64,000 nucleotides of DNA from Rugalucina vietnamica (taxonomy: Eukaryota > Mollusca > Bivalvia > Lucinida > Lucinidae), in the NCBI GenBank assembly GCA_964017185.1, contig OZ024879.1:22695456-22759455 (forward strand). Reading direction: 5' to 3'. Positions 7,709 to 24,974 of this stretch are shown piece by piece. Below the pieces are notes generated by a model that searched no databases, was not told the DNA's origin, and was given only the letters and a program-made list of their open reading frames with translations. A program made the position numbers and the translations under genes. Numbering within the stretch: position 1 is the first letter of the stretch; each line of letters opens with the position of its first letter.

Positions 7709-7917
7709 ATGAGCATTCAACCCAGAACCTAAAAGACAAACTGAAGAACAGGACCTGCCAATATTGCCAGAAAATTTTCCCTGCCCCCTCCCAATTGGCT
7801 TCACATGAGAGACGACATACTGGAGAAAGGCCTTATGAGTGTTCAACGTGTTCTAAGAGATTTTATACCAAAGGAGACTTACATAGACATGAACTCATAC
7901 ACATGAATATAAGCTGA
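7709..7917 (+). CDS. Terminal exon encoding two C2H2 zinc fingers (exon Z1)
   Basis: The exon opens after TTTTATTTTTAG (acceptor AG at 7707-7708). Its first two bases, AT, finish a split codon, so the entry is phase 1, and the frame runs to TGA at 7915-7917. After a ~14-residue basic linker come two standard fingers: one starting CQYCQKIF with histidines in HERRH, then the linker HTGERPYE, then one starting CSTCSKRF with HELIH, then MNIS and stop. Spacing is C-x2-C-x12-H-x3-H in both. There is no start codon in the exon, so it must be joined to an upstream exon. The predicted product is the DNA-binding end of a nuclear transcription factor isoform. The second finger is followed by several decayed copies of itself. 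Alternative: a retired exon; but the frame and all metal ligands are intact. Confidence 0.8.
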
Positions 7918-7946
7918 AACTATTTTCAGTAGTGTTATACTGTGTC

Positions 7947-8025
7947 TGTGCTACATGTTCTAAAAGATTTTTTTACGAAAAGAGACCTACATAGACATAA
8001 GCTCATACACATGAATATAAGCTGA
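7947..8025 (+). pseudogene. Frameshifted duplicate of the last finger of Z1
   Basis: The DNA reads as the second finger of Z1 again (CATCSKRFF, then DLHRHKLIHMNIS and a TGA) if one T is removed from a run of seven Ts near 7974-7980. The start of the finger lies 107 bp after the matching cysteine codon at 7840. As written the frame breaks, so this is a dead copy or an assembly error in the T run. Confidence 0.75.
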
Positions 8026-8122
8026 GGCAATACAAAAACATACCAATGACACAATGATATTTTCATACACATGAATATAAGCTGAGGCAATACAAAAACA
8101 TACCCATGACACAATGATATTT
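8003..8122 (+). repeat. 60-bp tandem duplication of the Z1-copy tail
   Basis: TCATACACATGAATATAAGC through ACACAATGATATT occurs at 8003-8062 and again at 8063-8122 with one or two differences. It duplicates the last codons (HMNIS-stop) and following spacer of the finger copy. Confidence 0.85.
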
Positions 8123-8157
8123 AAAGCTGAAAAATTTGAAGAATTTTTTCATATTTT

Positions 8158-8220
8158 TGCTCAAAACATAGATTGTGGGTACATGTTATGACCAGTACCC
8201 ACAATCTATGTTTTGAATCA
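8158..8220. mobile_element. MITE-A fragment (central palindrome)
   Basis: CTCAAAACATAGATTGTGGG is followed by its inverse, CCCACAATCTATGTTTTGA, around a loop GTACATGTTATGACCAGTA. This is the core of MITE-A without its ends. Confidence 0.75.
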
Positions 8221-8336
8221 ATAATCAGAAAATCTGTATTCTACTGTACACCTGAGTTTTACAATACAAAAGTGAGGTATTTGTTACATGGACATGTTAA
8301 AATAATATATACTAAAGACAGGCCCTTGTCTGTTAC

Positions 8337-8455
8337 ACGAAAGGATACCTGCATAGACATGAGCTTATACACATGGATATAAGTTGATTTTTTTGTGTAA
8401 ATAATCATGTTACTGTCTGTTGTACTTGTTCTAAAACATTTTATACTAAAGGACA
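8337..8455 (+). pseudogene. Two more decayed finger copies
   Basis: At 8337-8387 the frame reads TKGYLHRHELIHMDIS and stop, the second half of the Z1 last finger. At 8418-8455 it reads CCTCSKTFYTKG, the first half. Together with the copy at 7947 they form a decayed array with a unit of roughly 107-115 bp. Zinc ligands are split between fragments. Confidence 0.65.
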
Positions 8456-8469
8456 GACAAGAGCAATTA

Positions 8470-8560
8470 GAAGCATTTGTGGTGTAGTCGTTAATCCAGT
8501 TGCCTTGTAAACCAGTGGTCATGGATAAGACTATAAATCAAGATCCCATGACAATTTTCC
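8470..8560 (+). mobile_element. Degenerate tRNA-Thr-like SINE head
   Basis: GAAGCATTTGTGGTGTAGTC and CTTGTAAACCAGTGGTC match the tRNA-like head of the SINE at 8675-8838 (opposite strand). The B box is degraded. Confidence 0.55.
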
Positions 8561-8674
8561 ACTACAAACTGGTGACAAGGACATACTGTGACTAGGATGT
8601 GCCTAATGTGTTAAGTCCATGGACCTAGTCTTCAGACCTGACTTACACACAAAAACTGTACAGCACACATAGAC

Positions 8675-8838
8675 ATTGGTTGGTTGATTGGGGTTTAACA
8701 TCCCACCAACAGCTAAGGTCATATGGAGATGGGACCTTGGTTTATAGTCCCATCCGACGGACTGGAGAAGCCCAGGATCGAACCTGCGACCCCTGGTTTA
8801 CAAGGCAAGTGACAACCACTGCACCACGGAGGCTTCTA
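8675..8838 (-). mobile_element. tRNA-Thr-derived SINE
   Basis: On the minus strand the head reads GCCTCCGTGGTGCAGTGG (A box), then CTTGTAAACCAGGGGTC (anticodon loop TGT in CTTGTAA, threonine-like), then GGTTCGATCC (B box). The body ends TGTTAAACCCCAATCAACC. It sits inside the decayed finger array. It is not a functional tRNA gene because the acceptor stem does not close. Confidence 0.75.
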
Positions 8839-8843
8839 CACAC

Positions 8844-8975
8844 AGACATGAGCTCATAAACATGGACATTTTTTGTGAATAATCATGTTATTATTGTATG
8901 TTAAACATGTAATTGTTTTTTAAGATTTTATATGAAATTAGAGGGCTCATACACATGAATATAAGCAAGTTTTTT
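8844..8975 (+). pseudogene. Most decayed finger copies of the Z1 array
   Basis: AGACATGAGCTCATAAACAT at 8844-8863 and GGCTCATACACATGAATATA near 8943 match the RHELIHMNI coding DNA of Z1. The spacer GTGAATAATCATGTTATTAT matches the spacer at 8396-8412. Reading frames are destroyed. Confidence 0.55.
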
Positions 8976-8989
8976 GTGGGTAGTGATGC

Positions 8990-9600
8990 AAGAAAACAAG
9001 CATTCTGGGTTCCGACTGTGAGTACATGATAAAACATTTGCGTGGCGGTTCTAGATAATGAGTACACACATTCTAAGTTCTAGAGCAAAACTAAGAAACC
9101 TAAAATACCCTTGTACTATCAGGTCTTACTGTATAAAAGTAGGATATAAGGGAACATGTTATCCAGAGGGCACTTAATGTTCATGGTACATGTAGAAACA
9201 TTGGCCATGTGTTCTATCCTGGACAAGTTTCCTGTTGGCAGGTAACCAGTAGTAAGTGATAATTGCACTTCTTGAATAAGCATACACTACAGGAAGAAAA
9301 ACTGAATAGATGTGTTTTGTGACCAAAACTTTATTCAGTAGAAATTCATATTGACATTAAGGTTCAGCTTGGATCTGAATACAGTCTAGTTTCTGGCCAA
9401 ACTTTGAACCCATGGTTATAACTGGTCCAAAGACTTTGTGTGCACTCAGTTTTCATGCATTTCAAAAATTTTCATTTCTGGTGTAGTGATTCTTGTCTGT
9501 CTTAACTGCTGTTGTTCTTACTACACTTCTGAATACTCACATCTTAGAAAAGCATTGAAGATTTAAAAAGTAAATAATTCTACAAACACTAGCATTTGTC
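8990..9600. other. No feature recognised
   Basis: AT-rich intronic-type DNA between finger exons. I see no open frame with coding character, tRNA or clear inverted repeat. Confidence 0.5.
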
Positions 9601-9618
9601 TTTATTTCTTATACCTGG

Positions 9619-9720
9619 GTGAGAAGCTTTTGTGGGATAGTTGTTAAGCTATTTGCATTGTTAAATATGGGTTTTAGGTTCTATCCCAGAATTTACAAGT
9701 CCTTGAGATTAAACTAAGTT
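9619..9720 (+). mobile_element. Degenerate tRNA-like SINE head
   Basis: GTGAGAAGCTTTTGTGGGAT, CATTGTTAAATATGGGTTTT and AGGTTCTATCCCAG follow the order of A box, anticodon arm and B box of the threonine-like SINE at 8675-8838. Confidence 0.5.
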
Positions 9721-10027
9721 GTGGTCTGATCTCTATTATGACCCGAGTCGTTTGAGTAGGACGTAAAAACCCATATTAGCCAACTTCCTGTTTGGTCTGT
9801 TAATGACCATGGTGTGCAAGGAGATACAGGCGGGAATGATTTGTTTGATTGTATTAAGAATTAACATCCCAGTCAGCAATTTTTCAATCATGTCCGGATG
9901 GAGCCACTGCTTCCAGGGTAGTTACCTCAGCAGGGATCAAGCCTCTGGCACTTGATCTTTGTCTTCCTGGTGAGCTATGCAGTTTCCGTGCATATCCAAA
10001 AAGCATGCTTGTTCCATAAAGCAGTGA

Positions 10028-10200
10028 TTTGAGTGCAGTAGCATAGTGGTAGAGTAGAGCAGGCTGATTCCAGAGGTCCTGGGTTTGTTACTTAACCTAA
10101 ATAATGTAGTTTCCTTGAGCAAGACACTTTAAGCACCCATGATAGTTGTTGCTCATACTTAGGAAGAAATGACTCCTTACTGACATTGACACAACTAAAA
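10028..10200 (+). mobile_element. Degenerate tRNA-derived SINE upstream of exon Z2
   Basis: AGCATAGTGGTAGAGTAGAG resembles an A box and AGAGGTCCTGGGTTTG the start of a B box; TTGAGCAAGACACTTTAAGC is the body sequence shared with the SINEs at 14180 and 18972. The tail is lost. It ends about 75 bp before the Z2 acceptor. Confidence 0.6.
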
Positions 10201-10275
10201 CAATGTTGGCTCGGAGTAAGCCAAAACCAAACCTAATGAACAACAACAAAGATTTTTCTGCTTTTCTAATTGCAG

Positions 10276-11411
10276 TGTTTATGGTGAAAACTGGTGATGG
10301 AGAAACTGCTACAGAACATGTCTTCTCAGACGATTCAGATGACAACACACCATCCAAAGAAATACGTTGGAAACCAGTTCATAACACATTAAAGGTGGAC
10401 ATGCATGATTTGAAACATTCACTAGCTGAGAAACAAGTCAAGCGCAAGAAATATTTATGCATGGTTTGTAATGAAAAATTTCTAAATAAAGGTAACCTTA
10501 AAAGGCACATAGAAAATCAGCACAAAGAAACACCAGTGGAACAGGATGGCAATGGACATGAATCTGGCAATGACACTGACAAAGAACAAGATGCTGACAG
10601 TGATACTACATGCAGTTATGAACAAGCTGACAACGAAACAAAGAAAACAAAACATGAACACTCAAGTATCAATGGTACTGAAGAAAGTAAACACAACCCT
10701 TTGGATGATGTACAGGAATCTGAAAAAGGTGTAAAGCATATTAAGCGAAGAGGCAAATATGAACCCAACAGAAGGTTTCCTTGCGAAGTATGTGGTCGTA
10801 TTTTCCTGTACAGGTCCAAGTATGTAACACACCTGGCAACACATTCCTCTGACAAGCCATATTTATGTACGGGGTGTGGTACATCCTTTAAAACAAAATC
10901 AGGCATGGACAGACATATGAGAAGCATTTGTTTCAAAACTGGTGAAAGTACGAGCGAAAAGAGAAACCCTAGTAAACTTGAATATCCTTGTAGTGAATGT
11001 GAGAAATGTTTCTGGAAAAAGTCTGATTTGGAGTCACATTTTAGGAAACATTCGGGTGAGCAGCCATTTCTTTGTGTTTACTGTGGCGCTCGCTATAAAC
11101 GTAATGCTACTTTGAAGGAGCATGTGGCAATGCACCATGAAAATGGCCCACCCAGGAGTTCTCTGAAACCAAAACTAAGCTGGAAGAAGAGAAATGCCCC
11201 CAAAGTCAGTTGCAATGAATGTGGCAAACTTTTTCACTATACATCAGAATTAACAACTCATATGAGAAAACACACAGGGCAGTGCCCATACCAGTGTCCC
11301 AAATGTGGGTTTTATTTTAAGCGTCATTCTTATCTAGTGAAAAGTCATATGAAAACATGTACTGGTAAGGGTAAGAGGAGTTACAGAGACATAAAACCTA
11401 TTCTGAGATAA
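10276..11411 (+). CDS. Terminal exon encoding seven zinc fingers (exon Z2)
   Basis: An acceptor, TTTTCTAATTGCAG, ends at 10275 and the exon enters with TG completing a split codon (phase 1), the same phase as Z1. An ATG at 10203 is open in frame, but the first 24 codons then overlap the pyrimidine tract, so splicing is the better start. In the 402-residue numbering from that ATG: acidic stretch 41-60, finger 86-107, acidic/charged linker 112-180, fingers 194-214, 222-243 (ends in Cys, C2HC), 263-283, 291-311, 337-357 and 365-386 (C2HC with one extra residue). The charged linker DKEQDADSD is low in complexity. The last half-finger, stop and 3' flank are duplicated in tandem. Predicted role: sequence-specific DNA binding in the nucleus. 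An independent single-exon gene is the alternative. Confidence 0.85.
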
Positions 11412-11603
11412 GGGGTCACAGGGTCGTTGATGTTTGTTGCCCAGCCCCTTTGCTGTGGGTTTTATTTTAAGCGTCATTCTTATCTAGTGAAAAGTCATAT
11501 GAAAACATGTACTGGTAAGGGTAAGAGGAGTTACAGAGACATAAAACCTATTCTGAGATAAGGGGTCACAGGGTCGTTGATGTTTGTTGCCCAGCCCCTT
11601 TGC
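11304..11603 (+). repeat. Perfect 150-bp tandem duplication of the Z2 3' end
   Basis: TGTGGGTTTTATTTTAAGCG through CAGCCCCTTTGCT occurs at 11304-11453 and again at 11454-11603 with no difference seen. The unit holds the second half of finger seven, the basic tail, TGA-type end (ATTCTGAGATAA) and 3' flank. Copy two lies outside the frame's stop and is not translated with the exon. Perfect identity suggests a recent event or an assembly duplication. Confidence 0.9.
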
Positions 11604-11819
11604 TTATGATAAGGCAGTAAAATATGTTTAACCTGTTCCTACATGTAGATCCACAGCAAATTACTGCTTGGCTTCTTGTAATTACTTTTGTTTCATGTGT
11701 CAAATACACTGCATTACTTAATTGTTTCATTTGTAAAATTGTACTCATATAAATTTTCAACCCCTTATTTTTAAAAAAAAACCAACAACATTTGTATGTC
11801 AGAGCTTCTTACTATATTA

Positions 11820-12097
11820 TCATCAGAAAAAATATTTCCGTGTAATATGTATCTATTATACCCCACTTTTATATAGCAAAACTGGGGTATTTAGGGGTAT
11901 ACATTTTTCTTATTTTTACTTCAAAACATAGTTTATGGGTACTCGTTAGAACCGCCTCCGCGAGGCGATCCTAACGTGTACCCACAATTTATGTTTTGAG
12001 CAAATATACGAAAAATATCAAAAATTTTCTAATGAAAATATTTGCATTTTACAGCTCAGGAAAAATCTCTGTTTTTACACGGCGTGTTTTGGTAATG
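11820..12097 (+). mobile_element. MITE-A, near full length
   Basis: It runs from CATCAGAAAAAATATTTCCG through TATACCCCACTTTTATATAG, GGGGTAT and the palindrome (arms AACATAGTTTATGGGTAC and inverse, loop GAACCGCCTCCGCGAGGCG) to GGCGTGTTTTGGTAATG. This is MITE-A in its plus orientation. Confidence 0.8.
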
Positions 12098-12290
12098 TGT
12101 GATATGACTTGAGTGTAATAAAGTTTTTGCTCTCACTTCATGCGTAGTCATTTAATGTCCAAATCAAATATTCTTAAATCATCTTGAGCAGAACGACAAC
12201 TTCCTCAACCCATGTCATGAATAAATGCAGACCCAGCAGCAAACATAAACATGTCTGCTTAATGTATATACCATTATACCCCACATTTAT

Positions 12291-13200
12291 GTTATAGTAC
12301 AACTGGAGTATACTTATTATACCCCTGGCATTTATGGCGACGGGTATATAGCTTTCGCTTTTCCGTCCGTCTGTTCGTATGTTAGTTAGTTTCTTCGTTC
12401 GTAATTCCAGAACTTTCGTGGAATTTACATCAAAGTTTTTATTAAAGTTTCTCTACAGGTGTATATCTCGTGAACCAATGGTCAGAAACCATTCATATTT
12501 GGACCATAGGTACCTTATAGGATTTGCTTTGTTTCCATGAGTTCGGATCCCAGGGCCTATGCCCGGGGGTAGGGCTGGAGGTCAAAATCTAGGTCACCTT
12601 TAAAATATGCTATTAACAATTTTAATGTTTCTTCTCTAAGTCCATATCTTAAAAAACAATCATAGGGATGTATTCTTATTTAGTTCCTAGACACTATATA
12701 GGGTTTGCATTCGATGCTTGGTACCATCTCCAGGGGTGGGGCTAGAGGTCAAAATCTAGGACTTATTTATAATATGATAAATATACCATAATAAATTTTC
12801 TGTAAGTCTATTTTCTTGACATCCACAAAGTCTTGTCAGAAAGCATTTATACTTAGACCATAGGTACCATGTAAGGTTCAGACACTAAGGTCCATGTGCG
12901 GGGGGTCGGGCTAGAGGTCAAAATCTAGAACTTCTTTAAAAATTGTATTTTCTGTACTTTTCATTACCATCATGTTTAGAAATGATTTGTACATGCACCA
13001 AAGGGACTCTATAAGGTTTGCCTTGTTCCTACTGACATTAGACTTTAGGGTCGGTGCCCAGGGTGGGGCTAGAGGTCAAGACCTAGGACATCTTATTTTT
13101 ATTTTTTTAATATTATTGAAGAATGACATTCTACTTTACATCTAGGACCGAGGACCTGACCCTAAATGTCAGCGATCAAGTCCTAGATTGAGTATACAAG
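12291..13200. repeat. Minisatellite element, ~165-bp units (family shared with 32.7-33.4 kb)
   Basis: GGGGCTAGAGGTCAAAATCT-type anchors lie near 12570, 12737, 12907 and 13068, each preceded by ACCATAGGTACC or a variant. The left edge holds CATTTATGGCGACGGGTATA and a CCGTCCGTCTG run. The reverse complement of the unit (CTCTAGCCCCACCCC) is the unit at 32.7-33.4 kb. Confidence 0.7.
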
Positions 13201-13429
13201 TCAGCTCTGTATACTGTTCTAAAATAGATCTGTCATTCTACTACACTCCCCCCACCTTCCCATGGTTTTAGACAGTGCTTTTTGCAAATACAAATTTATA
13301 TTTATAAGATGTACTTGTTGAGGGCGCTCTCTTTCATCAGGAATTGAGGTTCAGTGAGCATGTCTGGATTGGAGGGTGGTGGGATAACGGGTGGGGGCGT
13401 TGGAGGGAGCTACCAGCCGGGGGGTATAC

Positions 13430-13527
13430 ATTGTACGTGCCTCCCAAGGCACTTTTTCTAGTTTTTCTTATTTGGATCTATACTATACTATGTGTACTAA
13501 CTGTGTACCAGCAATTAATGTTTTGAA

Positions 13528-13561
<34 letters not shown>

Positions 13562-13626
13562 AAGAAACTGAACATTTTCAGGGTTTTTCTTACAACTTTA
13601 AAACATGGGCATGTTTTCGTAATGGG
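13430..13626 (+). mobile_element. MITE-A fragment with poly-A expansion
   Basis: It keeps ATGTTTTGAAC, a poly-A run (13529-13559) where other copies have AAAAATA, and the terminus GGGCATGTTTTCGTAATG. The 5' half is replaced by unrelated DNA. Confidence 0.6.
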
Positions 13627-13743
13627 TTCCAAAGCTACATGTATGGCCTCTTTATGTTTTAGGCTGATGCTCTACCACTGAGCTTCCACACTGCTGTGAG
13701 AATATTTTAACACATATTGAACACTTTGACTGCATGTTCAGCA

Positions 13744-13938
13744 CATTAGGAAAGCATGTCCATGTAATGAATACCCTCTCATACCCCACTTTCATATGGT
13801 AAAACTAAAACTAAGGTGAGCAGGGGTATACCGTTTTTTCTTATTCTTGCATTTGAAGGATTTAATCAAGCTGAACATGCAGTCAAAGTGATATAAATTA
13901 TATCAAATGTTCATTACGAAAACTTGCCCATGCATTAT
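13744..13938 (+). mobile_element. MITE-A fragment
   Basis: It starts CATTAGGAAAGCATGTCCAT and TACCCCACTTTCATATGG; an end-type sequence CATTACGAAAACTTGCCCAT follows at 13905. The central palindrome is absent. Confidence 0.6.
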
Positions 13939-13953
13939 ACATTTTACTTTTTT

Positions 13954-14420
13954 GAAAAATTGTTGACTGGGACGTTAAGCCTCAATACAAACAAAAAGGC
14001 CTTTTGCTGACATTTGTATCTTAATGGTGTCTGTTTATTTTATGCCCTGGGATTTAGACTGATCACCGTTTTCTGGTATGTTTTATTAAAGAGCTAGGAA
14101 ACTTCTGCTAGAACCAGAAAAGTCGTATTTATCACAACAGACAAGGGCAAAGATATTATTAAATGAAGTTAAAAGAGGTTTTTGGGGAGCGCGGAGCGAC
14201 GGACTGAATCGAGAGGTCCTGGGTTCGATCTCTACTGGCGTCACCCTCTTGTGTCGTTGAGCAAGATACATTAACTCCCTACAGTACTGGTTAAAGCCAG
14301 GAAGCGTTGGCTCTGTCCCGACATGACTGAAAAATTGTTGACTGGGAAGATAAGCCTCAATTCAAACAAAAAGGCCTTTTGCTGATATTTGTATCTTAAT
14401 GGTGTCTGTTTATTATATCC
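13954..14420. repeat. SINE tail and flank repeated 376 bp apart
   Basis: GAAAAATTGTTGACTGGGA through GGTGTCTGTTTATT is present at 13954-14042 and 14330-14418 with few differences. The intervening DNA includes a SINE head, so a SINE plus flank was duplicated, with only the tail kept in the first copy. Confidence 0.75.
14180..14372 (+). mobile_element. tRNA-derived SINE
   Basis: GAATCGAGAGGTCCTGGGTT and CGATCTC form the anticodon-arm/B-box part, followed by TTGAGCAAGATACATTAACT, CAGGAAGCGTTGGCTC and the tail TTGACTGGGAAGATAAGCC. The A box is degraded. Confidence 0.7.
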
Positions 14421-14576
14421 GTCTGCCTCTGTTTTGCATGTAATCTTTGTTTTTGGAAATGCTAGCTACCTTGTTGGGAAAAAGCTCACCAGGTTAGTTT
14501 ATAGGATACTCATCCATTAAAGATCATTTTAACGCACCGGCTTATAGCAGGGTGTGATATAGGAGTCCAAACTTTT

Positions 14577-14855
14577 GTCCATCCGTTCGTCTGTAAGTTG
14601 GTCCATCAACGTTTACGTCGAATTGTGGTTTTCTATACATCAGTGATACCTGCGAGTGTGAAATTTTCTCGACATACCCTTCAAGCAGGCACCTTGACCT
14701 GGTGCCCTTGACCTATATTTTATGTTTCATTGACTGTTAATTTTTACGTTGAAGTTTGGGTTTCTTTGCATCAGTAATAGCTGAGAGTGTATAGTAATTG
14801 TCCTTGACATACTCTTCAAACATGCACATTGACCCATTGCCCTTGACCTAGCGTT
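14577..14855. repeat. ~165-bp minisatellite, left part
   Basis: Units carry TTTACGTTGAAGTTTGG, TTTCTTTGCATCAGTAATAG, GACATACTCTTCAAACATGC and TTGACCCATTGCCCTTGACC. The same units resume at 16600-17215, so the insertion 14856-16598 splits one array. Confidence 0.75.
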
Positions 14856-15650
14856 CAACCCCTTAAAGTCGATACACCCCTAAAGTCGATACCATATTTG
14901 TTTTGTTCCTTGTCACGTTGGAACATCACCTTTCGTCATGGGAATTTTTTTACTGTCAAAGTATTTTCACTCACAACTCAAAATGAAAGAAAATCTGCTT
15001 CACACAGGTTAAGTTCCATGTCAAAAACTTATTCCCATGCATATTTTAAGTATTTGCACTATTGCCTTTTTTGTCCCAGGCTTAACATTTATTTTTTCAG
15101 AAATAAACAACAGGAAGATTTTGATCTCTGTACGTCTGCTGTTGTTTACATTTCAGCCATGACAGTCTCGCATAACATGTGAAACAAATTAGGCATTTGA
15201 CGAAAAATATGTTTTTATCGGTGTTGTGCTGCTTATTGGTATGGGGGAGAATTTTGGATCTAGAAAAGTTAATTTCCACTCATTTCTATCCGGCTGAGGC
15301 TATCCGCACGACGGTCGTGCCGATAAGCGGCGTTATCCGCACGACGGTCGTGCCGATAAGCGGCGTAATCGGCCCGACCGTCGTGCGGATAGCCAATGCT
15401 ACAGGTATTGGCTATCGGCACGACGGGAGTATAAGATTTTCTAACAAGCTCATTAAATAAATTAATTATGTGTTAAGCTATTGAAATACATTCGAAATAA
15501 TTAATAATTTTGTTAATTATGAATACGAAAACTAGTTTGATTTGATTAATCCAGCTGAAGTAAACCTGAGATAAAGATAAATCTGTATATGTCTCTGTGT
15601 AAACTGAATCACAGTAGATTTCTAACAGCGGAGAAAAATATAGATCTAAT

Positions 15651-15682
<32 letters not shown>

Positions 15683-16598
15683 TGTTACTGAAATGTTTCC
15701 ATACCCCATTAATAAAAATTAAAGGTTGTTCATTCTTTTGGATTATTTTATTACTTAAGTTACGATAATTACTTTCTCATTTACGCATACGCATGAGTGA
15801 TTTTTACAGGTAAATTCACAGGTAAACCAATTTCAGCAAAATAACAATTTTGTCAATTAAAAAGTAAAAAATCCTGCATGTGTAATATTCTGTTCCAGTT
15901 TTGAAGCCAGTGTAATATATTTATCAAGTTAAAATGTATACATTTCTAAACGTTTTTAACATTTGGATATCGATTTCCCTGTCGTGCGGATAACGCCGCT
16001 TATCGGCACGACGGTCGTGCCGATAAGCGGCGTTATCGGCACGACCGTCGTGCGCATAGCCAGTGTCTTTCTATCCACCCCAAAATAGAAAGCTAAATCC
16101 AACCAAATAAATGGCATTGTTGTGATAATTGAGAGAAGTGACTTAGTGTTTATAGCTTGATATCACACCACTTGCAGCTATTCTTTTTAACTGTGCTCAT
16201 CTTCAAGAGGAACAGACACAATACAAAGGCATGCTACTTTTGCATGAATAATTTCCCTCATTCATTCTTGAAGCAGTTTTTATTTGTTTTATTGTGATAC
16301 GGTGCTTCTTAAGTTTCACCTAAACATTTTAAACTAAAAACATTTTCCTTGGCTTCTATAGGATGGGTGATCTCCTGAGGTATCCACTTTAGGGGTCTAG
16401 CAAGTCGCCATTTTGAATTTGGGGTCATCCAGAAAAAAGCTGGTATTGAGGTGTCTTATGTGATTGTTTCAAGTTTATTTATGGACAATAATTGCCTAGG
16501 AGTTGATCTACTTTGGTGAGTGTGGTTTGGGTTTTTTATCATTTGATTTTCATTTTTATAAGAAATAACTTCTTATGGTATCGACTTATGGGGGTTCA
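14856..16598. mobile_element. 1.74-kb TIR insertion splitting the minisatellite
   Basis: The left end CAACCCCTTAAAGTCGATAC (with the box repeated as CCCCTAAAGTCGATACCATA) pairs with the right end, reverse complement GAACCCCCATAAGTCGATAC. Flanks on both sides are minisatellite units (CCTTGACCTA / ATATATTTCACGGTC). It contains the foldback element at 15292-16067. Short open frames inside have no recognisable domains. Confidence 0.6.
15292..16067. mobile_element. GC-rich foldback element with 9-bp direct repeats
   Basis: Both ends consist of GCACGACGGTCGTGCC and GATAAGCGGCGTTATC words, themselves palindromic, repeated two to three times and inverted between ends, around an AT-rich ~560-bp core. 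TTTCTATCC lies at 15283-15291 and again at 16068-16076. Nine-base duplications fit foldback- or Mutator-type insertion. There is no transposase frame. A poly-T run lies at 15653-15676. Confidence 0.75.
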
Positions 16599-16599
16599 A

Positions 16600-17215
16600 G
16601 GATATATTTCACGGTCAATTGACTTTGTTAATTTTTACGTTGAAGTTTGTTTTTCTTTGCATCTGTGATAGCTGAGGGTGTGAAACCTTGCATAGTAATT
16701 GTCCATGACATACTCTTCAAGCACGCACCTTGACCCAGTGCCCTGGGTCAAGGTTCGTGCTTGAAGAGTATGTCAAGGGTCCCCTTGACCTATATTTCAC
16801 GGTCCATTGACTTTGTTACTTATTAAGTAGAAAGTTTTGTTTTCTCTGCATCAGTGACAGCTGGAGTGTGAAACATTGAATAGTAACTGTCCTTGACATC
16901 CCTTCAAGCTTGCACCTTGACCCAGTGCCTTTGGTCTACATTTCACGGTCCACTGAATTTGTGTACTCGAAGCTTGGTTTTCTCTACATCAGTGATAGCT
17001 GCGAGTGTGAAACCTTGACATACGCTTAAAGCACGCACCGTGACCCAGTGCTCTTGACCTATATTTCATGGTTCACTGGCTTTGTTAATTTTACGTCAAA
17101 GTTTGGTTTTCTCTATACAATAGCTGCAAATGTAAAACCTTCCATAGTTATTGTCCTTGACATACCCTTAAAGCACGCTTCTTGACCTTATTTTTCAAGT
17201 TTACAGCTGAAACAA
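16600..17215. repeat. ~165-bp minisatellite, right part
   Basis: Four to five units with TTTTACGTTGAAGTTTG, TGATAGCTGAGGGTGTGAAA, CTTCAAGCACGCACCTTGAC and CCTTGACCTATATTTCACGG. An inverted pair, GACATACTCTTCAAGCACG and its reverse complement, lies at 16708-16726 and 16753-16771. Confidence 0.75.
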
Positions 17216-17359
17216 ATCTGTTTGTATTGCATTGGGCAAGCTTTTGTGAATGGAAAGGAAACTTGGCATGTAGCGTACTAAAATGTGTAAATATAAATCA
17301 TTACGCTGTGATGACTGGCCTGCACAAATGATAATTAACGCCAAATCAGGTTGTCTATA

Positions 17360-17515
17360 TCAGCGCCTTTCTTTTTCGCTACACGGATAGTACAATTCCT
17401 CCTCTACTCATACCCAAAATTTCAAGATTCTAGCTTTCTTCTTAGGCCGGTTTGTGTTGGACCTAGCGGAAATCCCGAAGACCGGTTTCCTGATCTTTGC
17501 CTACTTGTACTTTTT
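17360..17515. mobile_element. Half MITE-B joined to a retroelement 3' end
   Basis: 17360-17487 carries CGCTACACGGATAGTACAAT, AAAATTTCAAGATTCTAGC and GGCCGGTTTGTGTTGGAC, the right half of MITE-B. It is followed at once by TTCCTGATCTTTGCCTACTT, the extreme 3' end of the retroelement seen at 28895, 49535 and 55215. Confidence 0.65.
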
Positions 17516-17578
17516 CATACTGAAACACATTTTTTCTCGGAGACAGCTATGCCAGTTCCTGGATGTTCCCGTTGTCAT

Positions 17579-17813
17579 TTGAGCCGCGACGCCAGAAAAC
17601 CGATCTTCGGGGTTTCCGACCAGCTCCAACACAAACCGACCTGCACTGTCTCATAAATAGGATAGAAGCTTGAAATTTTGTATTTAAATAGAAGGAGGAT
17701 TGTACTATCCATGTAGCGAAAACAAAGACGCTGATCAGCTGTGCAGTAACTGCTCAGCTGATCTGCGCCTTTGTTTTCGCATAGGCAAAAATCCGGTTAT
17801 TCGTGACGCGGCT
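17579..17813 (+). mobile_element. MITE-B, complete, 25 bp before exon Z3
   Basis: The left end TGAGCCGCGACGCCAGAAAA pairs with the right end TTCGTGACGCGGCTCA. The centre is AGCGAAAACAAAGACGCTGA plus its inverse TCTGCGCCTTTGTTTTCGC, around GCTGTGCAGTAACTGCTCAGC. The right end leaves only 25 bp before the exon Z3 boundary, so the Z3 branch point probably lies in the MITE or at its edge. Confidence 0.8.
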
Positions 17814-17838
17814 CATTTTCACATTACTATCTTTTCAG

Positions 17839-18050
17839 GTGCTAAGACAAGCATCACTTATGGCGGAAAAGCTAGAAGACCAGTCTGTGACGTATGTGGT
17901 CTTGTATGCCAGTCTCCAGCCGGATACCAGATTCATCAGCGAGTCCATACGGGAGAGAAACCTTACAGTTGTGAGATATGTGGAAAACGTTTTGCTCAGA
18001 AAAGCAGCGTCAAATCCCACATGGTTACTCATTTGAAAACAGTCATTTGA
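17839..18050 (+). CDS. Terminal exon encoding two C2H2 zinc fingers (exon Z3)
   Basis: The acceptor ACTATCTTTTCAG ends at 17838 and GT completes a split codon, phase 1 as in Z1, Z2 and Z4. An in-frame ATG at 17700 lies inside the MITE and is ignored. The exon has a basic linker of about 17 residues, then CDVCGLVC...HQRVH, HTGEKPYS, CEICGKRF...HMVTH, LKTVI and TGA. The first finger has Cys where the conserved Phe of the hydrophobic core is expected and Tyr for the conserved Leu, so its fold may be weak. The second finger is close to that of Z4 (ICG-x2-FAQK). The last 30 bases are repeated twice downstream. A DNA-binding isoform terminus is the likely role. Confidence 0.8.
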
Positions 18051-18118
18051 TGTGGTTACTCATTTGAAAACAGTCATTTAATATGTCGTAACTCATTTGA
18101 AAACAGTCATTTAATATG
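18028..18118 (+). repeat. Triplicated 3' end of exon Z3
   Basis: ACTCATTTGAAAACAGTCAT occurs three times (starting about 18027, 18058 and 18090). The first copy encodes THLKTVI and the stop; the others lie after the stop. Confidence 0.85.
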
Positions 18119-18151
18119 AGCTGCAACTAGCATGATAAAACCTGTGCATTA

Positions 18152-18430
18152 GAAAACTTGCCCTGGCATCACAGATACAGAGAATTTTTTCAGCATTAAA
18201 AATTAAATTTTCATTGGAAAAATTTGGTTTATTTTAATGTTTGCTCAAAACATAGATTGTGAGTACACCTTAGAACCGCCTCACCGAGGCACATTTTGAT
18301 AGTGTATCTTTACGAAAACATGTCCGTGAAAGGCATACCCCATTACACCCCATTTTCATGTACCAAAACTGGAGTGTGTGAGGGGTATACAGTATTCTGT
18401 TTTGAAGTGGGTACCCGTAAAGTTCTGTAT
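18152..18430 (-). mobile_element. MITE-A fragments
   Basis: Left part (18152-18300) in the minus orientation, with AAAACATAGATTGTGAGTAC and GAACCGCCTCACCGAGGC; then 18305-18400 starts a plus-orientation copy, ACGAAAACATGTCCGTGAAA and TACACCCCATTTTCATG. The junction is ragged. Confidence 0.6.
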
Positions 18431-18433
18431 TCC

Positions 18434-18682
18434 AGGTGACATTTTCATGTAATATATTCCTCCTTATACCCCACTTTTATATAACAAAACTGGGGTATGC
18501 AGGGGTATATTTATTTTTCTTATTTTTGAACCAAACCTTGGATTGTTGGGTACTCGTTAGAACCACCTCTATGAGCAAAATTGTAAAAAATATCATTTTT
18601 TTTTTTTTTTTCAAATGAAATTTTAAACTTTTTGGCTGAAAAAAATCTCTATATTTTGCATGGGCGTGTTCAAGTAATGTTA
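18434..18682 (+). mobile_element. MITE-A, near full length
   Basis: Runs from ATTTTCATGTAATATATTCC through TTATACCCCACTTTTATATA and GGGTACTCGTTAGAACCACC to GCATGGGCGTGTTCAAGTAATG-like end. The right half of the palindrome is deleted and a poly-T run fills 18596-18611. Confidence 0.7.
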
Positions 18683-18971
18683 ACATTATATCTTCACATT
18701 TTATTTTACCTATTTTAGATTGATCAGTCACACAAACATTTCAATTTTATAATTCTATTGATACAACACTATCAACTTCAAATACAACTTACTAACAGCA
18801 AGAAAGACAACATTTTTATTTGGAACAAAACAAAATTAACTTCAAGCAATCAAGGTCATCCATCGATCGAGCAATTTCAACAGGGTATGGGCTGAACCTT
18901 ATTTTGATAGAGCTAACCCACTTGTAAAATACACATAAAAGGCAATAACATATCATTCTAAAACTACAATA

Positions 18972-19240
18972 AGGAAGCACAGTGGTCTGGTGGTAGAGCA
19001 CCAGACTACGAATCGAGAGGTCCTGGGTTCGATCTCCACACGGTGCACTGTGTTGTGTGCTTGAGCAAGACACATAAACTCCCCAGAGTACTGGTTAATA
19101 CTCAGGAAGCGGTGGCTCCATCTTGACATGTCTGAAAAATTGTTGACTGGGATGTTAAACATCAATACCCAGGAAGTGGTGGCTCCATACCGATATGATA
19201 GAAAAATTGTTGACTGGGATGTTAAACGTCAATTCAAACA
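18972..19240 (+). mobile_element. tRNA-Arg-like SINE with duplicated tail
   Basis: GGTCTGGTGGTAGAGCACC (A box), ACTACGAATC (anticodon ACG, arginine-like) and GGTCCTGGGTTCGATCTCC (B box) form the head. The body TTGAGCAAGACACATAAACT and the tail TTGACTGGGATGTTAAAC follow. A second tail copy, with GGTGGCTCCATACCG, lies at 19166-19235. It ends in CAAACAAACAA. Confidence 0.8.
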
Positions 19241-19261
19241 AACAAGTAAAACTACAATAAA

Positions 19262-19472
19262 AATTGAGCATGTGCATGAGAAAACCAACATTATGGGTTC
19301 CTACCAGGTCTGACACAACCCTGGCTGTACAATCACTGAAATTTTGGATTTAAGTAGAAAAAGGATTCTAATATCTTTGAAGCGAAAACAAAGGCGCTGA
19401 TCAGCTTCGCGGAGCTGGTCTGCGCCTTTGTTTTCGCCTATGCAAATTGTTGGTTTTCCCATGCAGCGGCTC
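19262..19472 (+). mobile_element. MITE-B
   Basis: Ends TGAGCATGTGCATGAGAAAA and TTTTCCCATGCAGCGGCTCA, with a central AAGGCGCTGATCAGCTTCGC palindrome and TTTGTTTTCGCC. Confidence 0.8.
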
Positions 19473-19503
19473 ATTTATGTCCAGTGACTGTAGTTAGACA
19501 GCT

Positions 19504-19787
19504 GGGCCCAGTAACTCAAAGGCATCGTAAGTTCCCCTACTTACGACATACTTAAGATGACCACCTTAAAATTTACGCCTTGGCTATTCCAGTTACTCTC
19601 AGCTGTCGTAATTTTTGTCAGATGAAAGGTACTACTTCGTAAGATAAGACGACGCCAAAGTTAAGATGTTGTTAAGTTCTCATCGTAACTTAAGGTCCTT
19701 TTCAGTTATTCACCATAATCCCTAAGAGATACTTAAGTTGGTCGTAAAGTGATCTTAAGCTTAAGATGGCTTTTAGTTACCAACCCC
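19504..19787. mobile_element. 284-bp CTTAAG-rich MITE
   Basis: The left end GGGCCCAGTAACTCAAAGGC pairs with the right end, reverse complement GGGGTTGGTAACTAAAAGCC, over about 28 bp. The interior is packed with CTTAAG, CGTAAG and CTTACG words in both orientations. No target duplication is evident. Confidence 0.65.
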
Positions 19788-19894
19788 TGATCTGTATCAA
19801 AATGCGGATTTGCTTAAGACAGTTGATAAGAATAAATTTGAACAGTATGAATGAATGTGTTTCATTTGAGATTCCATATCCCAAACTTATGGTA

Positions 19895-19925
19895 TCAATA
19901 GTGCATCAGTCATTTGTATCCCAGG
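19895..19925. mobile_element. Terminal fragment of the 22890-23316 MITE family
   Basis: AGTGCATCAGTCATTTGTAT followed by CCCAGG matches the TIR TGCACCAGTCATTTGYATCC of the element at 22890. Confidence 0.45.
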
Positions 19926-20162
19926 TCCCTTGACCCAGACACTTTGAGCTACATGTCTCTGCATCACGACGTGTATTGTTGGTAGAGTAGTCTACATCAT
20001 GCACTTGGTTGCAAATATTAAAACAATTATAATACACGTACGAAGCAAATTCAAATATACAAATTGTAAACTAAAAATATGAACATTCAACGATAAAAAT
20101 ACTGCATGCACCCTACGCTAATTATGTACATGTATATGCAAACTATCGGGATTCACAGTTGA

Positions 20163-20372
20163 GGCGCGACGCGTGAAAACCGGTCTTGTGCCTATGCGAA
20201 AACAAAGGCGCTGACCAGCTGTGCAGTAACTGCACAGCTGATCAGCGCCTTTGTTTTTGCTTCTCAGATAGTACCATTTCTCTTCTTCTTAAATCAGAAA
20301 TTTCAAGCGTCTAGCCTATTTCTGTGATTGTACAGGACTTGGTTGGAAACCCTGATGACCGGTTTTCTCACG
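20163..20372 (+). mobile_element. MITE-B
   Basis: Ends TGAGGCGCGACGCGTGAAAA and TTTTCTCACGGCGCGGCTCA. The centre is AAAGGCGCTGACCAGCTGTG with TGCACAGCTGATCAGCGCC, followed by TCAGATAGTACCATTTC. Confidence 0.8.
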
Positions 20373-20449
20373 GCGCGGCTCAGTTTGTCTTGTTTCATGT
20401 CTAGCCTTATGAATAAGATCAGACAGCATAATTGAGACATCGCACAAGC

Positions 20450-20640
20450 AAACTAACAATCTGCATTTGCGAAAACAACAACACAGATCAGCTACACTGA
20501 TTATGGTGCAATACCCTTTTATGTTGAATCCGAAATTTCAATCTTCAATCTTGCCTTTTTCTGAGACTGGTTTGTGCCAGACCATGTTGGAAACCCAAAC
20601 TGTTGGTTTTCTCATGCCAGTGCTCAGATCTTTTACAGAA
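20450..20640 (+). mobile_element. MITE-B, partial
   Basis: Has ACAATCTGCATTTGCGAAAA, GATCAGCTACACTGATTATG, TCCGAAATTTCAATCTTC, GACTGGTTTGTGCCAGACC and GTTGGTTTTCTCATGCCAGT. The left terminus is eroded. Confidence 0.65.
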
Positions 20641-20657
20641 TCTGACATAATTATGTG

Positions 20658-20880
20658 AGCCGCCTCGTGGGAAAACCAGCAATGTGGTTTCCGAACAGGT
20701 TCGACACAAACCGGGCTGTACTATCACAAAAGATAGCTAGAGACAGGAAATTTTGGATTTAGAAAATAGAGGAATTGTACTATCAGTGTAGTACACTGAT
20801 CAGCTTCGCAGTTACTGCCAAGCTGATCTGCATCTTTGTTTTCGCATATGCAGATTGTTGGTTTTCCCATGAGGCGGCCA
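20658..20880 (+). mobile_element. MITE-B, complete
   Basis: Ends TGAGCCGCCTCGTGGGAAAA and TTTTCCCATGAGGCGGCCA. The order is GGTTTCCGAACAGG, GACACAAACCGGGCTGTAC, AGAAAATAGAGGAATTGTAC, then GATCAGCTTCGCAGTTACTG. Confidence 0.8.
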
Positions 20881-20892
20881 TTCCATGTACAA

Positions 20893-21057
20893 ATCAACCT
20901 CATTATAATGCCATCTATGAAGTACAGTGTTATAAGTTTGTTACCTATGAGGTTATTTACAATAGTCATATAGCAAAATGACTAATTTTGGAGCTATGAC
21001 ATGGCCATGTTATACCAAGAACCACATTATACTGAGGAGCGTTATAATGAGGTTGAT
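20893..21057. mobile_element. 165-bp MITE
   Basis: Left end ATCAACCTCATTATAATGCC; right end GCGTTATAATGAGGTTGAT is its inverse with one mismatch over ~20 bp. TATAAC/GTTATA words fill the interior. It is next to a MITE-B copy. Confidence 0.7.
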
Positions 21058-21196
21058 GGTTTTACAGATATACAAGCCTGACATTCCTTGAAATGTGTCC
21101 ATTACAAAATTATGGTCTCTCTCCCATATGGATTAACAAAATGTGTGAATTTCAAGCCAGCCTTTTTCGCATAGAAGACACGAAAATCAATAAATG

Positions 21197-21462
21197 CCTG
21201 GTCCAGAGGTTATAAAACTTTTTTTCATAAAACTTTTTTTCATGCTCAACTCAGCTGAGCATGAAATTTCAGTTCCTCATAAATACTGAAATGGCCGAAA
21301 TGGTTGAAATTTCAGATTTAGATCACCAAGGACTGTAATTTATCCTGCTAATAAATGTTAAAATGCCACCAGTTGTTGGCATTTAAACATTTATGTGCAG
21401 GCTAAATTTCAGTCTTGGCTAAGATGAGCATGAAAAAAAGTTTTGTAACCTCAGGGCCTGTC
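21197..21462. mobile_element. ~265-bp MITE
   Basis: GGTCCAGAGGTTATAAAACT and CTTTTTTTCATGCTCA on the left pair with TGAGCATGAAAAAAAGTTTT and GTAACCTCAGGGCC on the right. The left arm has an extra CATAAAACTTTTTTT duplication. Confidence 0.65.
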
Positions 21463-21626
21463 TGGTGTTAGTGTGAACCACTATTTGTTTCAGCAGACCT
21501 TTTTCATGCTCAAATCAGCTTAGCCTGAATTCTGTTCTACTCTGCAGCTAATATTACAAATCAAACTGCCAACAATCAATTGACAATTTACTTTTATCTG
21601 AAGATAAATGACTAGTTTCTGCATTT

Positions 21627-22370
21627 TTAAATAGGAAATGGGAAGATTTTAAAAGCTCGTTTTATCGTTACTCCAACATGCCTTGCTATATGCCTCCTAA
21701 GAGGTCTAAAATGGTAAAACTTGCGACTACACAGATCACATGTATTATCCTTGCCATGTATAAGCACATGTTTTACTAGGTATTTATTCATTGAAAAACA
21801 TTTGTTACATATATGACAAATGTATGGTTTCACACTAGAATGCATTGTAGAATGAGTGTACAATGAAGCTGCACAATTAAATCGATCATTGCATTGAGTA
21901 CAAACAAAAGGTCTTTCTTCAGTATGAATTATGTTGTGAATTTTTAGATAACTCTTCCGGGCAAACTTCTCCGAACAAATTTCACAAGCATAGGCTCTCT
22001 TACTATGGTTATTGGCTTTGTGAGAATGTAGCTGACTGTTTGTTCTAAACAATTTCGGGCATAAATTACAACTATAAGGCAAATCACCGGTATGGATTAA
22101 CTTGTGATTTTTTAGACCTTGGGCAAATCTGAATCGTCTTTCACACAGATCACATGCAAACTCTCTGGTGTCAGAATGAATAAGTGAATGTTTCCTCAAA
22201 CTTCGAGCTTCACAAAACTTTTTCTGACATACAGTACAAGAAATAGGTTTCTCCTGATTGTGGCAACACAGCATATGTCGCTTGAGTTGAGAGGCGAATT
22301 CAAATGTTTTTGGACATAGGCCACAGAAAAATTCCTCTGTTTTTGCACTCGGTTCCTCTCTCTGACTCAT
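21627..22370 (-). CDS. Eight-finger C2H2 protein, single-exon coding region
   Basis: The minus-strand frame starts at ATG 22368-22370 (A at -3) and ends after KIFPFPI; 247 residues. An in-frame stop lies about 50 bases upstream of the ATG, so the start is well placed unless a splice junction lies between. Fingers start at residues 16, 45, 73, 101, 129, 157, 185 and 211; the first and fourth have x4 between the two histidines and the others x3. All cysteine and histidine ligands are present. The short N-terminus (MSQREEPSAKTEEF) is acidic. A possible 5'UTR acceptor, GGTCTTACTCACAG, lies upstream. It opposes the plus-strand finger exons and lies in the interval between Z3 and Z4. Predicted role: DNA-binding regulator in the nucleus; target unknown. 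Confidence 0.88.
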   Translation of the reverse strand: MSQREEPSAKTEEFFCGLCPKTFEFASQLKRHMLCCHNQEKPISCTVCQKKFCEARSLRKHSLIHSDTREFACDLCERRFRFAQGLKNHKLIHTGDLPYSCNLCPKLFRTNSQLHSHKANNHSKRAYACEICSEKFARKSYLKIHNIIHTEERPFVCTQCNDRFNCAASLYTHSTMHSSVKPYICHICNKCFSMNKYLVKHVLIHGKDNTCDLCSRKFYHFRPLRRHIARHVGVTIKRAFKIFPFPI

Positions 22371-22399
22371 AATGATATTGTTACTCTTGACATGTTTTA

Positions 22400-22889
22400 G
22401 AATCTGTTTTCAACTTTAGAACAAATTATCTCAGCCCTCAAATCATGTGGTTTTGTTCGATTGGTTGCCTGTGAGTAAGACCAGGTTTTTTCTAGGTGTC
22501 TTTGCTTGTAATGTCAAATGAGAGAGGAACGTCCAAAATGCTTGAGTTTTCTGTATACTTTAGCTTGCAGTATAGGTCTGAAATAAGAAAAAAATATTTG
22601 ATCAAATATGGACAGAAATATGTTATACCAACATATTATAGCTATATATAGATGAATGGGGCCCTTGCAGGGGTTTTGGGGACCAGGGGAGCCAACACAT
22701 TTTTGTGTGTGGGTGTGTTAAGGGAGCAAGGATCTGAGGTAAAACATTTAATAAGAGATCTGGGGAGATCGGGTGTTTTTCTTCCAGGGAGCAGGGAGCT
22801 AAGCTATCCACCCCCCCCCCCCCCCCGATAGGGCCTCATATGATACTACTTTTAACAGAATTAAGTTATCATTATGTTATTCAGTGTAA
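22400..22889. other. Upstream flank of the eight-finger gene
   Basis: Holds a possible 5'UTR intron acceptor on the minus strand near 22488-22502 and a poly-C run at 22810-22826. No other feature is recognised. Confidence 0.4.
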
Positions 22890-23316
22890 TGCACCAGTCA
22901 TTTGCATCCCCGGCTCCCCCGGGGCCGGGGAATAAGCGGGGCTTTTAACTTTTCAATTTTTAAAGCCCGGCTAAAAGCCCGGCACTGCCGGGCAAGAATT
23001 TTGGTAAAACCCCTGCCAAAAGCCCCGGCTCCCCAGGGGCTGACAATAACATGGAACAACAGCTGGGAGTTGTTCTGATGAAACTGAAACATGGGAGAAG
23101 GGCCTCATTTCATGCATGTAAATGTTTAGGTGCATTTGGAAATTAAATAAGTACCATAAAGATAATTAAATGTTAAAAATATCATTAAATTCTAATTTGA
23201 ATTAATGTGACAGTGTATTGGCGGGAAATCATAACCCCGGCAAATCCCCGGCACTGCCGGGACACATCAGAGGTTAAAGCCAGGCACTTTAGCCGGGGAT
23301 ACAAATGACTGGTGCA
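22890..23316. mobile_element. 427-bp MITE with TAA target duplication (Harbinger-like)
   Basis: Left end TGCACCAGTCATTTGCATCC and right end, reverse complement TGCACCAGTCATTTGTATCC, match over about 26 bp. TAA flanks both sides (22887-22889, 23317-23319). Three-base T-A-rich duplications fit PIF/Harbinger. The GC-rich arms are built of CCCGGC/GCCGGG words around an AT-rich core. Confidence 0.8.
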
Positions 23317-23483
23317 TAATTAAAGTCATGCCGCATGTCAAAGTGAGAAACCATGCAGCGCACACGCACAAACACTGAAACAATGCCAATGTGACTGTGT
23401 TTCCTAGTCGTGTCTTTTTTACACATATTTCTAAGCATAAACAAACCAGATTCTTGACAAATCTTATTGAAGACAGGGACCGG

Positions 23484-23720
23484 GTGCATGGCAGCCGGTT
23501 GGTTAGCACCTGAGCACGTTAGTCTCTTGATCAAGGGGTTAGTGATTCGATTCCAACTGGTGTTAGGTTGTGTCCTTGATCACATTTAGGACCCTGTGGT
23601 ACCATCCAGACTACACTGAGAAAATTGGTGACTTAGAGGTTACTGTTATATAACATGTCTAGCACTAGAAGAACGAAGGCACTGGCAGGGCATCAAGCGT
23701 GTTGTCTCCCTTTCATAGAG
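23484..23720 (+). mobile_element. tRNA-derived SINE
   Basis: GCAGCCGGTTGGTTAGCACC (A box), CTCTTGATCAAGGGGTTAG (anticodon-type arm) and GTGATTCGATTCCAACTGG (B box) form a tRNA-like head. The body includes GTTGTGTCCTTGATCACATT. The tail differs from the TTGACTGGGATG family. Confidence 0.65.
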
Positions 23721-24025
23721 CATTCGCTGGTTTCAGTTTCATGCTTGCGAATAAAATATACAGAGAACCGTACAAAGTTTAAAAAATAATGCTAGTTTCA
23801 CAAAATCGGTCGAATAATTTCTCACAAAGTCTGCTTGTATGGTTTGGACAAGAGGACACAAATCCAGGCACCAAAATATTTTAATAATTGCAACTGCAGC
23901 TGAGAACGTGTAAAAACCGGAACCAATCATGCAATGCCCGGGACCATTATTTGGCATTTAAAAGTACCGAGATGTATACAATTGATCACATACTTGTACG
24001 TATACCAAGAACTGCGTAGAATATA

Positions 24026-24167
24026 AGAATCTTACATGAGTGTCAGGTATGGATAGACAAATCTGTCCCGAGGGTCACAGTTTGGCACGAGGCTCGCCGA
24101 GTGATGCCAAACTGTGATCCGAGGGACAGATTTGTCTATCCATACCTGACACGCATGATGGATTCTT
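24026..24167. repeat. Long hairpin GTGTCAGG...CCTGACAC
   Basis: The arms 24040-24093 and 24099-24152 are inverted copies (GTGTCAGGTATGGATAGACA, then AATCTGTCCC and CACAGTTTGGC) with an ACGAGGCTCGCCGAG centre. Outside them AGAATCTTACATGAGTG pairs imperfectly with CGCATGATGGATTCT. The outer sequence resembles that of the hairpin at 42168-42260. Confidence 0.8.
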
Positions 24168-24440
24168 TTTCTTGCACACCTTCAAGTTGTGAAGCTTGAT
24201 TTTCAAACTATTCATCTAGAAAAACGCTACAATCGCGGCATCCGCCATTTTGAATAAGAATGTTTTGACGTCATTATGACGTGTGCGCCGAACGACGAAA
24301 TTACGTGACGTCCTATACAACCAATGTTAAAAAAGAACACTTGAACGCAGGGTGAGCCTGGGGTGAGATAACAAGGGTGAGATGAGAATTTCTCACATGG
24401 GGTAAGACGTAGGATGTCTCTATCTGGTGTGCAAGAACAC
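24168..24440. mobile_element. Possible TIR element with TTCTTGCACACC ends
   Basis: TTCTTGCACACC at 24170-24181 is inverted as GGTGTGCAAGAA at about 24427-24438. It adjoins the hairpin at 24026-24167 and may be part of the same element. The interior includes TGACGTCATTATGACGTG. Confidence 0.45.
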
Positions 24441-24584
24441 ATTTTCCCCTTTTTCAAGATTATTTCAGCTCATATACGAGACGGGCCAATCAGTAGGTGG
24501 AGCAAAAACAAAACGGGACAACCCCGAGAAAAAACACTTGGCACCGTGACCCGCAAAGATAACTTGGCTTGTCTCACATGTGCC

Positions 24585-24678
24585 CCGTGTGGGGCTCGAA
24601 CCCACACCAGACACAGCGGTGAGATGATTGAATGGTTAAGCGCGGTAATCTTAACCACTCAGCTACAAGGGCCGCCCA
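24585..24678 (-). mobile_element. tRNA-like SINE head
   Basis: Minus strand: GCGGCCCTTGTAGCTGAGTG (A box), a long variable-arm-like stretch, and GGTGTGGGTTCGAGCCCCAC (B box stem-loop). The long arm suggests a leucine- or serine-type tRNA ancestor. It lies 90 bp before the acceptor of exon Z4. Confidence 0.6.
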
Positions 24679-24765
24679 AAGAACACTTTAACACCACTTT
24701 AAACGCATATGGTCCACCACTGTGTTACTTTACTCTTCTTTCAAACTATTTTCTTTTCTTTTCAG

Positions 24766-24974
24766 GCCCCCAGATGCCTAGACGCACCGTAGCAGAGGGA
24801 CAACACACCTGCTTCTTTTGTCAAAAGACTTTTCCATACCGGAATGCATTGGAGATGCATCAGAGGATTCACACTGGAGAGAAACCTTACTGTTGTCAAA
24901 TCTGTGGCCGAACCTTTGCACAGAAAGGCAACATGAAAACTCACATGATAACACATGTGAACGACTTGAAATGA
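24766..24974 (+). CDS. Terminal exon encoding two C2H2 zinc fingers (exon Z4)
   Basis: A strong acceptor, TTTTCTTTTCTTTTCAG, ends at 24765 and GC completes a split codon (phase 1). An upstream in-frame ATG at 24414 lies in repeats and is ignored. The exon encodes [14 protein letters not shown], the finger CFFCQKTF...[13 protein letters not shown], the finger CQICGRTF...HMITH, then VNDLK and TGA at 24972-24974. Both fingers keep all ligands and the core Phe and Leu/Met. Finger two matches Z3's (ICG-x2-FAQK, HM-x-TH), so the two exons look like duplicates. MITE-B similarity begins at or just before the stop codon, so the ancestral C-terminus and 3'UTR may have been replaced. Predicted role as for Z1-Z3. 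Confidence 0.83.

Follow-up and report, generated by a model that had tools for sequence, protein, structure and literature searches.

Alternative zinc-finger endings joined to a shared front are best known so far from a few fly genes. In PMC1947980, Drosophila longitudinals lacking (lola) is described as a constant 5' part to which any one of a large number of unique 3' exons is spliced, the majority of them encoding zinc fingers, with at least 20 isoforms. PMC11426971 gives at least 30 isoforms for Drosophila mod(mdg4), which differ in the C-terminal part and involve trans-splicing, and describes BTB proteins of the TTK type as specific to Arthropoda, its own search having returned none with the motif in several phyla including Mollusca. 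A literature search covering titles and abstract openings returned no description of such arrays outside arthropods. Here a locus of the lucinid bivalve Rugalucina vietnamica was analyzed, lying within and to the left of a 64,000-nucleotide stretch of DNA (hereafter the window; contig OZ024879.1, here C11, positions 22695456-22759455, of a 1.09-Gb genome). The locus is very probably one gene, with a constant 5' part of three exons (E0-E1-E2) and seven alternative 3' terminal exons (A1-A7) encoding C2H2 zinc fingers. Contig position equals window position plus 22695455, and negative positions lie left of the window.

Comparison with described gene plans

The locus shares with lola a set of alternative C2H2 3' terminal exons in one phase with their own stops (seven exons here) and, as predicted from the splice sites, one shared 5' donor of fitting phase, namely the phase-1 donor of E2. 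It differs in two respects: the constant part of lola carries a BTB domain, as in the TTK type, whereas the head found here has none, and here the plan recurs at many loci of one genome. The endings of mod(mdg4) are mostly FLYWCH and its head is BTB, in contrast to the C2H2 endings and non-BTB head of this locus. Because the head is not BTB and TTK-type BTB proteins are reported to be confined to Arthropoda, the arrangement looks like an independent origin of the lola-like plan, far larger in scale and with a head that is unrelated.

Two other systems are alike in part. The clustered protocadherins of vertebrates, which are adhesion proteins, also combine tandem variable exons with a constant part; their constant part is 3', preceded by variable exons that have their own promoters, whereas here the constant part is 5'. 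KRAB zinc-finger clusters consist of tandem C2H2 units in which the contact residues vary and the TGEKP linker is conserved; every such unit forms a complete gene, whereas here many finger exons apparently share one head.

Seven terminal exons at one locus

The sequence-only reading had proposed a lola-like array of four plus-strand exons beginning at 7709, 10276, 17839 and 24766, and all four are present, each with a phase-1 AG acceptor, C2H2 fingers recognized by Pfam, and a stop. Three of these exons, A4 (7709..7917), A6 (17839..18050) and A7 (24766..24974), have the predicted two-finger design of about 69 codons (69-70 codons measured), while A5 (10276..11411) encodes seven fingers in about 378 codons. 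The extent first assigned to the array was too narrow, for three further two-finger exons lie on the plus strand 10 to 16 kb left of the window: A1 (C11:22679043-22679245, window -16412), A2 (C11:22681475-22681695, window -13980) and A3 (C11:22684668-22684882, window -10787). The complete set spans 41 kb, and all seven exons are intact with a phase-1 AG acceptor. The six two-finger exons are 67-73 codons long, with the stop 2-9 codons past the last finger. A C2H2 scan that took in 100 kb on the left and 50 kb on the right gave no exon fitting this pattern right of the window.

That none of the four window exons has a credible start of its own held for A4 and A6 and is less certain for A5 and A7, each of which has an early in-frame Met. 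The in-frame ATG of A5 lies 6 nt past the acceptor, which makes an own start possible for this exon, and the frames of both A5 and A7 contain more ATGs also 5' of the acceptor. No in-frame ATG occurs between the preceding stop and the acceptor in A1-A4 and A6.

Across 35 two-finger exons the best-scoring acceptor was in phase 1 in 32, compared with 101 of 248 AG sites in the leaders, a regularity that exceeds chance, with the reservation that the 35 exons are not independent because they are related by duplication. The exceptions were exon L051 and, at this locus, A2 and A3, for which a phase-1 AG 44-50 nt before the first Cys was chosen though another AG scored higher.

Several degraded copies of the second finger and tail of A4 lie 3' of that exon (7930-8980), and the end of A5 with its 3' flank is repeated once immediately downstream (11297-11610).

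A probable shared front outside the window

The shared 5' exon had been expected outside the window, and a front of three plus-strand exons was found to the left. E0 (C11:22661056-22661145, window -34399 to -34310) has 30 codons, starting with ATG and ending in a phase-0 GTAAGG donor; E1 (C11:22661935-22662091, window -33520 to -33364) runs from phase 0 to phase 1; and E2 (C11:22668691-22669359, window -26764 to -26096) is in phase 1 at both ends, with an AAAA|GTAAGT donor that fits the acceptors of the array. E1 and E2 were found from sequence evidence, by codon scoring followed by a splice-site and coding scan, and are the two strong plus-strand candidates between the array and an element resembling a long interspersed nuclear element (about -48 to -43 kb). 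E1 contains no Met, so that an earlier exon is needed. E0 was missed both by a coding-score search for first exons and by the splice-site and coding scan, and was revealed by conservation in the DNA upstream of E1 in two paralogues. Translations of E1-E2 joined to each of the seven exons are open to the stop, and the junction of E0 with E1 is in phase 0. A search of 214 kb gave a single occurrence of E1-E2. A weaker scoring frame, rich in lysine and arginine (TKRKVAQSPAERQRHFRERRDADP...), was also seen between E2 and the array (-18668 to -18384, plus strand, phase 1 to 1).

A BTB head, the other expectation, was not found. A Pfam scan of the three plus-strand frames from -70 to -30 kb gave no BTB domain, Pfam shows none in E0-E1-E2 joined to A7, and none of the 149 BTB matches listed genome-wide lies near the locus. 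When the head was searched with an E1 alignment of 18 of the 21 aligned copies, no Pfam family passed the cut-off and no PDB match was better than E 0.48. The weak matches, to Pfam PAC3 (E 0.067), to aBig_2 (a single member of the 18, E 0.18) and to PDB entries (E at least 0.48), were judged to be chance.

The exons, splice-site sequences, phases and open frames are directly observed, as are the signs of selection and the recurrence of the head with runs of finger exons described below. In the proposed mechanism, the phase-1 donor of E2, or that of E1 (in the same phase) if E2 is skipped, would be spliced to one of the phase-1 acceptors, giving a product with a common N-terminus and linker and a differing zinc-finger end. 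Each ending exon has its own stop, therefore a protein would carry one ending, and serial joining in one frame is excluded. Such splicing is expected to occur, each ending exon would have its own poly(A) site, and the two-finger ends may bind different short DNA sites. A pair of fingers covers no more than about six bases of DNA, so the 83-residue head may also multimerise or recruit partners.

The head recurs across the genome

Genome-wide, the E1-E2 protein gave 55 matches, the E1 query 68 and the E0 query 43, all of them lower bounds since the searches scored best candidates only. Among the 68 E1 matches, 44 good copies were used, after removal of one match interrupted by a stop and of 23 that were partial or weaker. 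An E0 match lies on the same strand within 25 kb upstream of 40 of these 44 copies, at a median distance of about 1.2 kb, and no E0 match in the wrong order or on the wrong strand was found within 25 kb of an E1; three E0 matches were not taken as the nearest partner of any E1. The phase-0 acceptor and phase-1 donor of E1 are kept in all 21 aligned copies (20 and this locus), although in one of them, L071, the donor lies 3 nt earlier. A phase-1 GTAAGT donor was present at all five of the E2 ends that were checked. In a set of five E1 copies, E0 was found within 1 kb upstream in two, and the genome search placed it further upstream in the other three. Separately, a plus-strand E0 copy 97% identical to the query was seen at C11:21847107, with no E1 match nearby.

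Runs of finger exons and their heads

The A6 query returned 162 matches and the A7 query 156, with the best 150 of about 3500-3600 candidates scored in each case. Furthermore, a 35-base linker pattern allowing up to three mismatches gave 462 matches, of which about 100 were listed, versus none for a control. The union comprises at least 261 places; A4 of this locus is not among the matches listed. These places are similarity matches, some of which are incomplete or lie within longer frames, and 45 exons were examined in sequence. The run table was confined to C11 and C4, matches on other chromosomes being left out; C11 contributes 18 same-strand runs with at least 248 places, and C4 a single run with at least 13.

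A same-strand E1 lies within 100 kb on the 5' side of 15 of the 19 runs, covering 182 of the 261 places. With random E1 strands, 15 was reached in 80 of 20000 trials, the 100-kb limit having been set after the first run table. A same-strand E1 was also found on the 3' side of four runs, in three cases the one that heads the following run. The recurrence of the E0-E1 head before same-strand runs supports, on anatomical grounds, the proposal of lola-like interchangeable endings.

These counts bear on the possibility that each finger exon is the last exon of a small gene of its own, with a private 5' exon, the whole having arisen by tandem duplication. Animal genomes commonly contain C2H2 genes in tandem arrays, no head was detected for four runs, and A5 has its early in-frame ATG. 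A search for private exons scored, besides A5, one weak 106-nt plus-strand candidate (15299) between the array exons, which counts against private genes; it is weak evidence because the same scan missed E0. The absence of an in-frame ATG before the acceptors of A1-A4 and A6 and the same-strand head 5' of most runs also argue against private genes, which we consider improbable.

A single gene with a shared head is thereby preferred, and the points that weigh against it can be set out together. The exon scan overlooked the short E0, so that short or non-coding private 5' exons are possible. Met codons stand near the start of A5 and A7, and the acceptor scores of A2 and A3 are modest. A poly(A) hexamer within 300 nt past the stop was found in four of the seven exons, no clear excess over the local density of 1.6 per kb. 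On the genome scale, a same-strand head was not found for four of the 19 runs (79 of 261 places, in runs of 37, 1, 17 and 24), and five of the 19 C11 heads have no run (17.88, 22.28, 30.53, 31.77 and 49.43 Mb). To these are added the roughness of the selection ratios and the behavior of finger 1, both given below.

The headless runs comprise three multi-exon runs on C11, at 30.11-30.29 Mb (37 places), 30.57-30.66 Mb (17) and 31.20-31.34 Mb (24), and a single place at 30.47 Mb. Ten further exons sampled from them, nine from the three multi-exon runs and one from 30.47 Mb, are all intact with phase-1 acceptors. Two of the three multi-exon runs have an opposite-strand E1 on the 5' side, and the exons of the headless runs could be trans-spliced to heads from elsewhere or from the other strand, which would supplement the shared-head gene plan rather than replace it. 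Precedent comes from lola and mod(mdg4), for both of which PMC11426971 states trans-splicing, as PMC1947980 does for lola. Missed or diverged heads, inversions, a mis-oriented contig or scaffolding errors would look alike, and trans-splicing is regarded as unlikely. A broader proposal, itself rather unlikely, is a modular transcription-factor system apart from the arthropod BTB genes, in which about 40 small heads of an undescribed domain would exist, a subset of them each serving up to about 27 two-finger or many-finger endings, with intact headless arrays of up to 37 endings headed in trans.

The nearest neighbor of an exon was in the same array for 13 of 45 exons, compared with an average of 5.2 after label shuffling (none of 500 shuffles reached 13), and the arrays therefore grew partly by local duplication. 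Nine further C11 matches to the finger region of A5, in open frames of more than 150 residues, lie in or beside runs, and all nine are on the strand of the run. Most of these matches cover the fingers only, so that the common region is the fingers and descent from A5 is left unsupported. A linker variant with the fixed change CTTATAG was listed as isolated matches on many chromosomes, pointing to a dispersed repeat that includes part of a finger exon.

Selection and DNA-contact residues

Proportions of nonsynonymous (pN) and synonymous (pS) differences were pooled over pairs, and the resulting ratios are rough because pS approaches saturation and the pairs lack independence. E1 copies gave pN 0.173 and pS 0.643 (pN/pS 0.27, 210 pairs), and finger exons pN 0.292 and pS 0.676 (pN/pS 0.43, 595 pairs). 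Within the fingers, pN/pS was 0.74 and 0.69 for contact codons versus 0.44 and 0.38 for other finger codons. Roughly judged, E1 and the finger exons are under purifying selection, the contact codons least. The eight contact residues form a different octet in every one of 35 exons, and positions 2 and 6 are the most variable in finger 2; the contacts of finger 1 are no more variable than its other free positions. The pattern favors exons that are translated and under selection and whose DNA reading has diversified, chiefly through finger 2.

The same comparisons address the possibility that most array exons are duplicates in decay or out of use, with only a few of them spliced. The degenerate finger-2 fragments 3' of A4 and the in-frame stops in some finger-exon matches would fit such decay. 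The nine closest of the 595 finger-exon pairs, however, have nonsynonymous distances (dN) of 0.04-0.15 with synonymous distances (dS) of 0.40-1.34, and the seven locus exons and all ten sampled from headless runs are intact, which makes widespread decay highly improbable.

The linker region gave a pN/pS of 0.18 with a low pS of 0.39 in the 35 array exons. Elsewhere in the fingers pS is about 0.78-0.80. The depression covers TGEKPYSC and its neighbors and gives the impression that the linker underwent gene conversion or was constrained as DNA or RNA. In the first finger, Cys replaces the core Phe in 22 of 45 exons, while in the second finger Phe is retained in 43 of 45.

Neighboring features

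An intact eight-finger C2H2 open frame lies antisense between A6 and A7 (21678-22368, minus strand) and is probably a separate gene. A large many-finger C2H2 frame of other design (L011) was found on the minus strand 74812 to 73049 bases left of the window. The minus-strand open frame at 58022-58399 resembles part of a Tc1/mariner transposase.

Implications

If the arrangement is as proposed, this bivalve would add to the few fly genes a further case, one with another head and with candidate endings in the hundreds, and the plan would count as a repeatable means of diversifying transcription factors. With the many further genes of this build that the genome seems to hold, an animal could derive a large set of DNA-binding proteins from few genes, and the gene counts of such genomes would hide many DNA-binding specificities.

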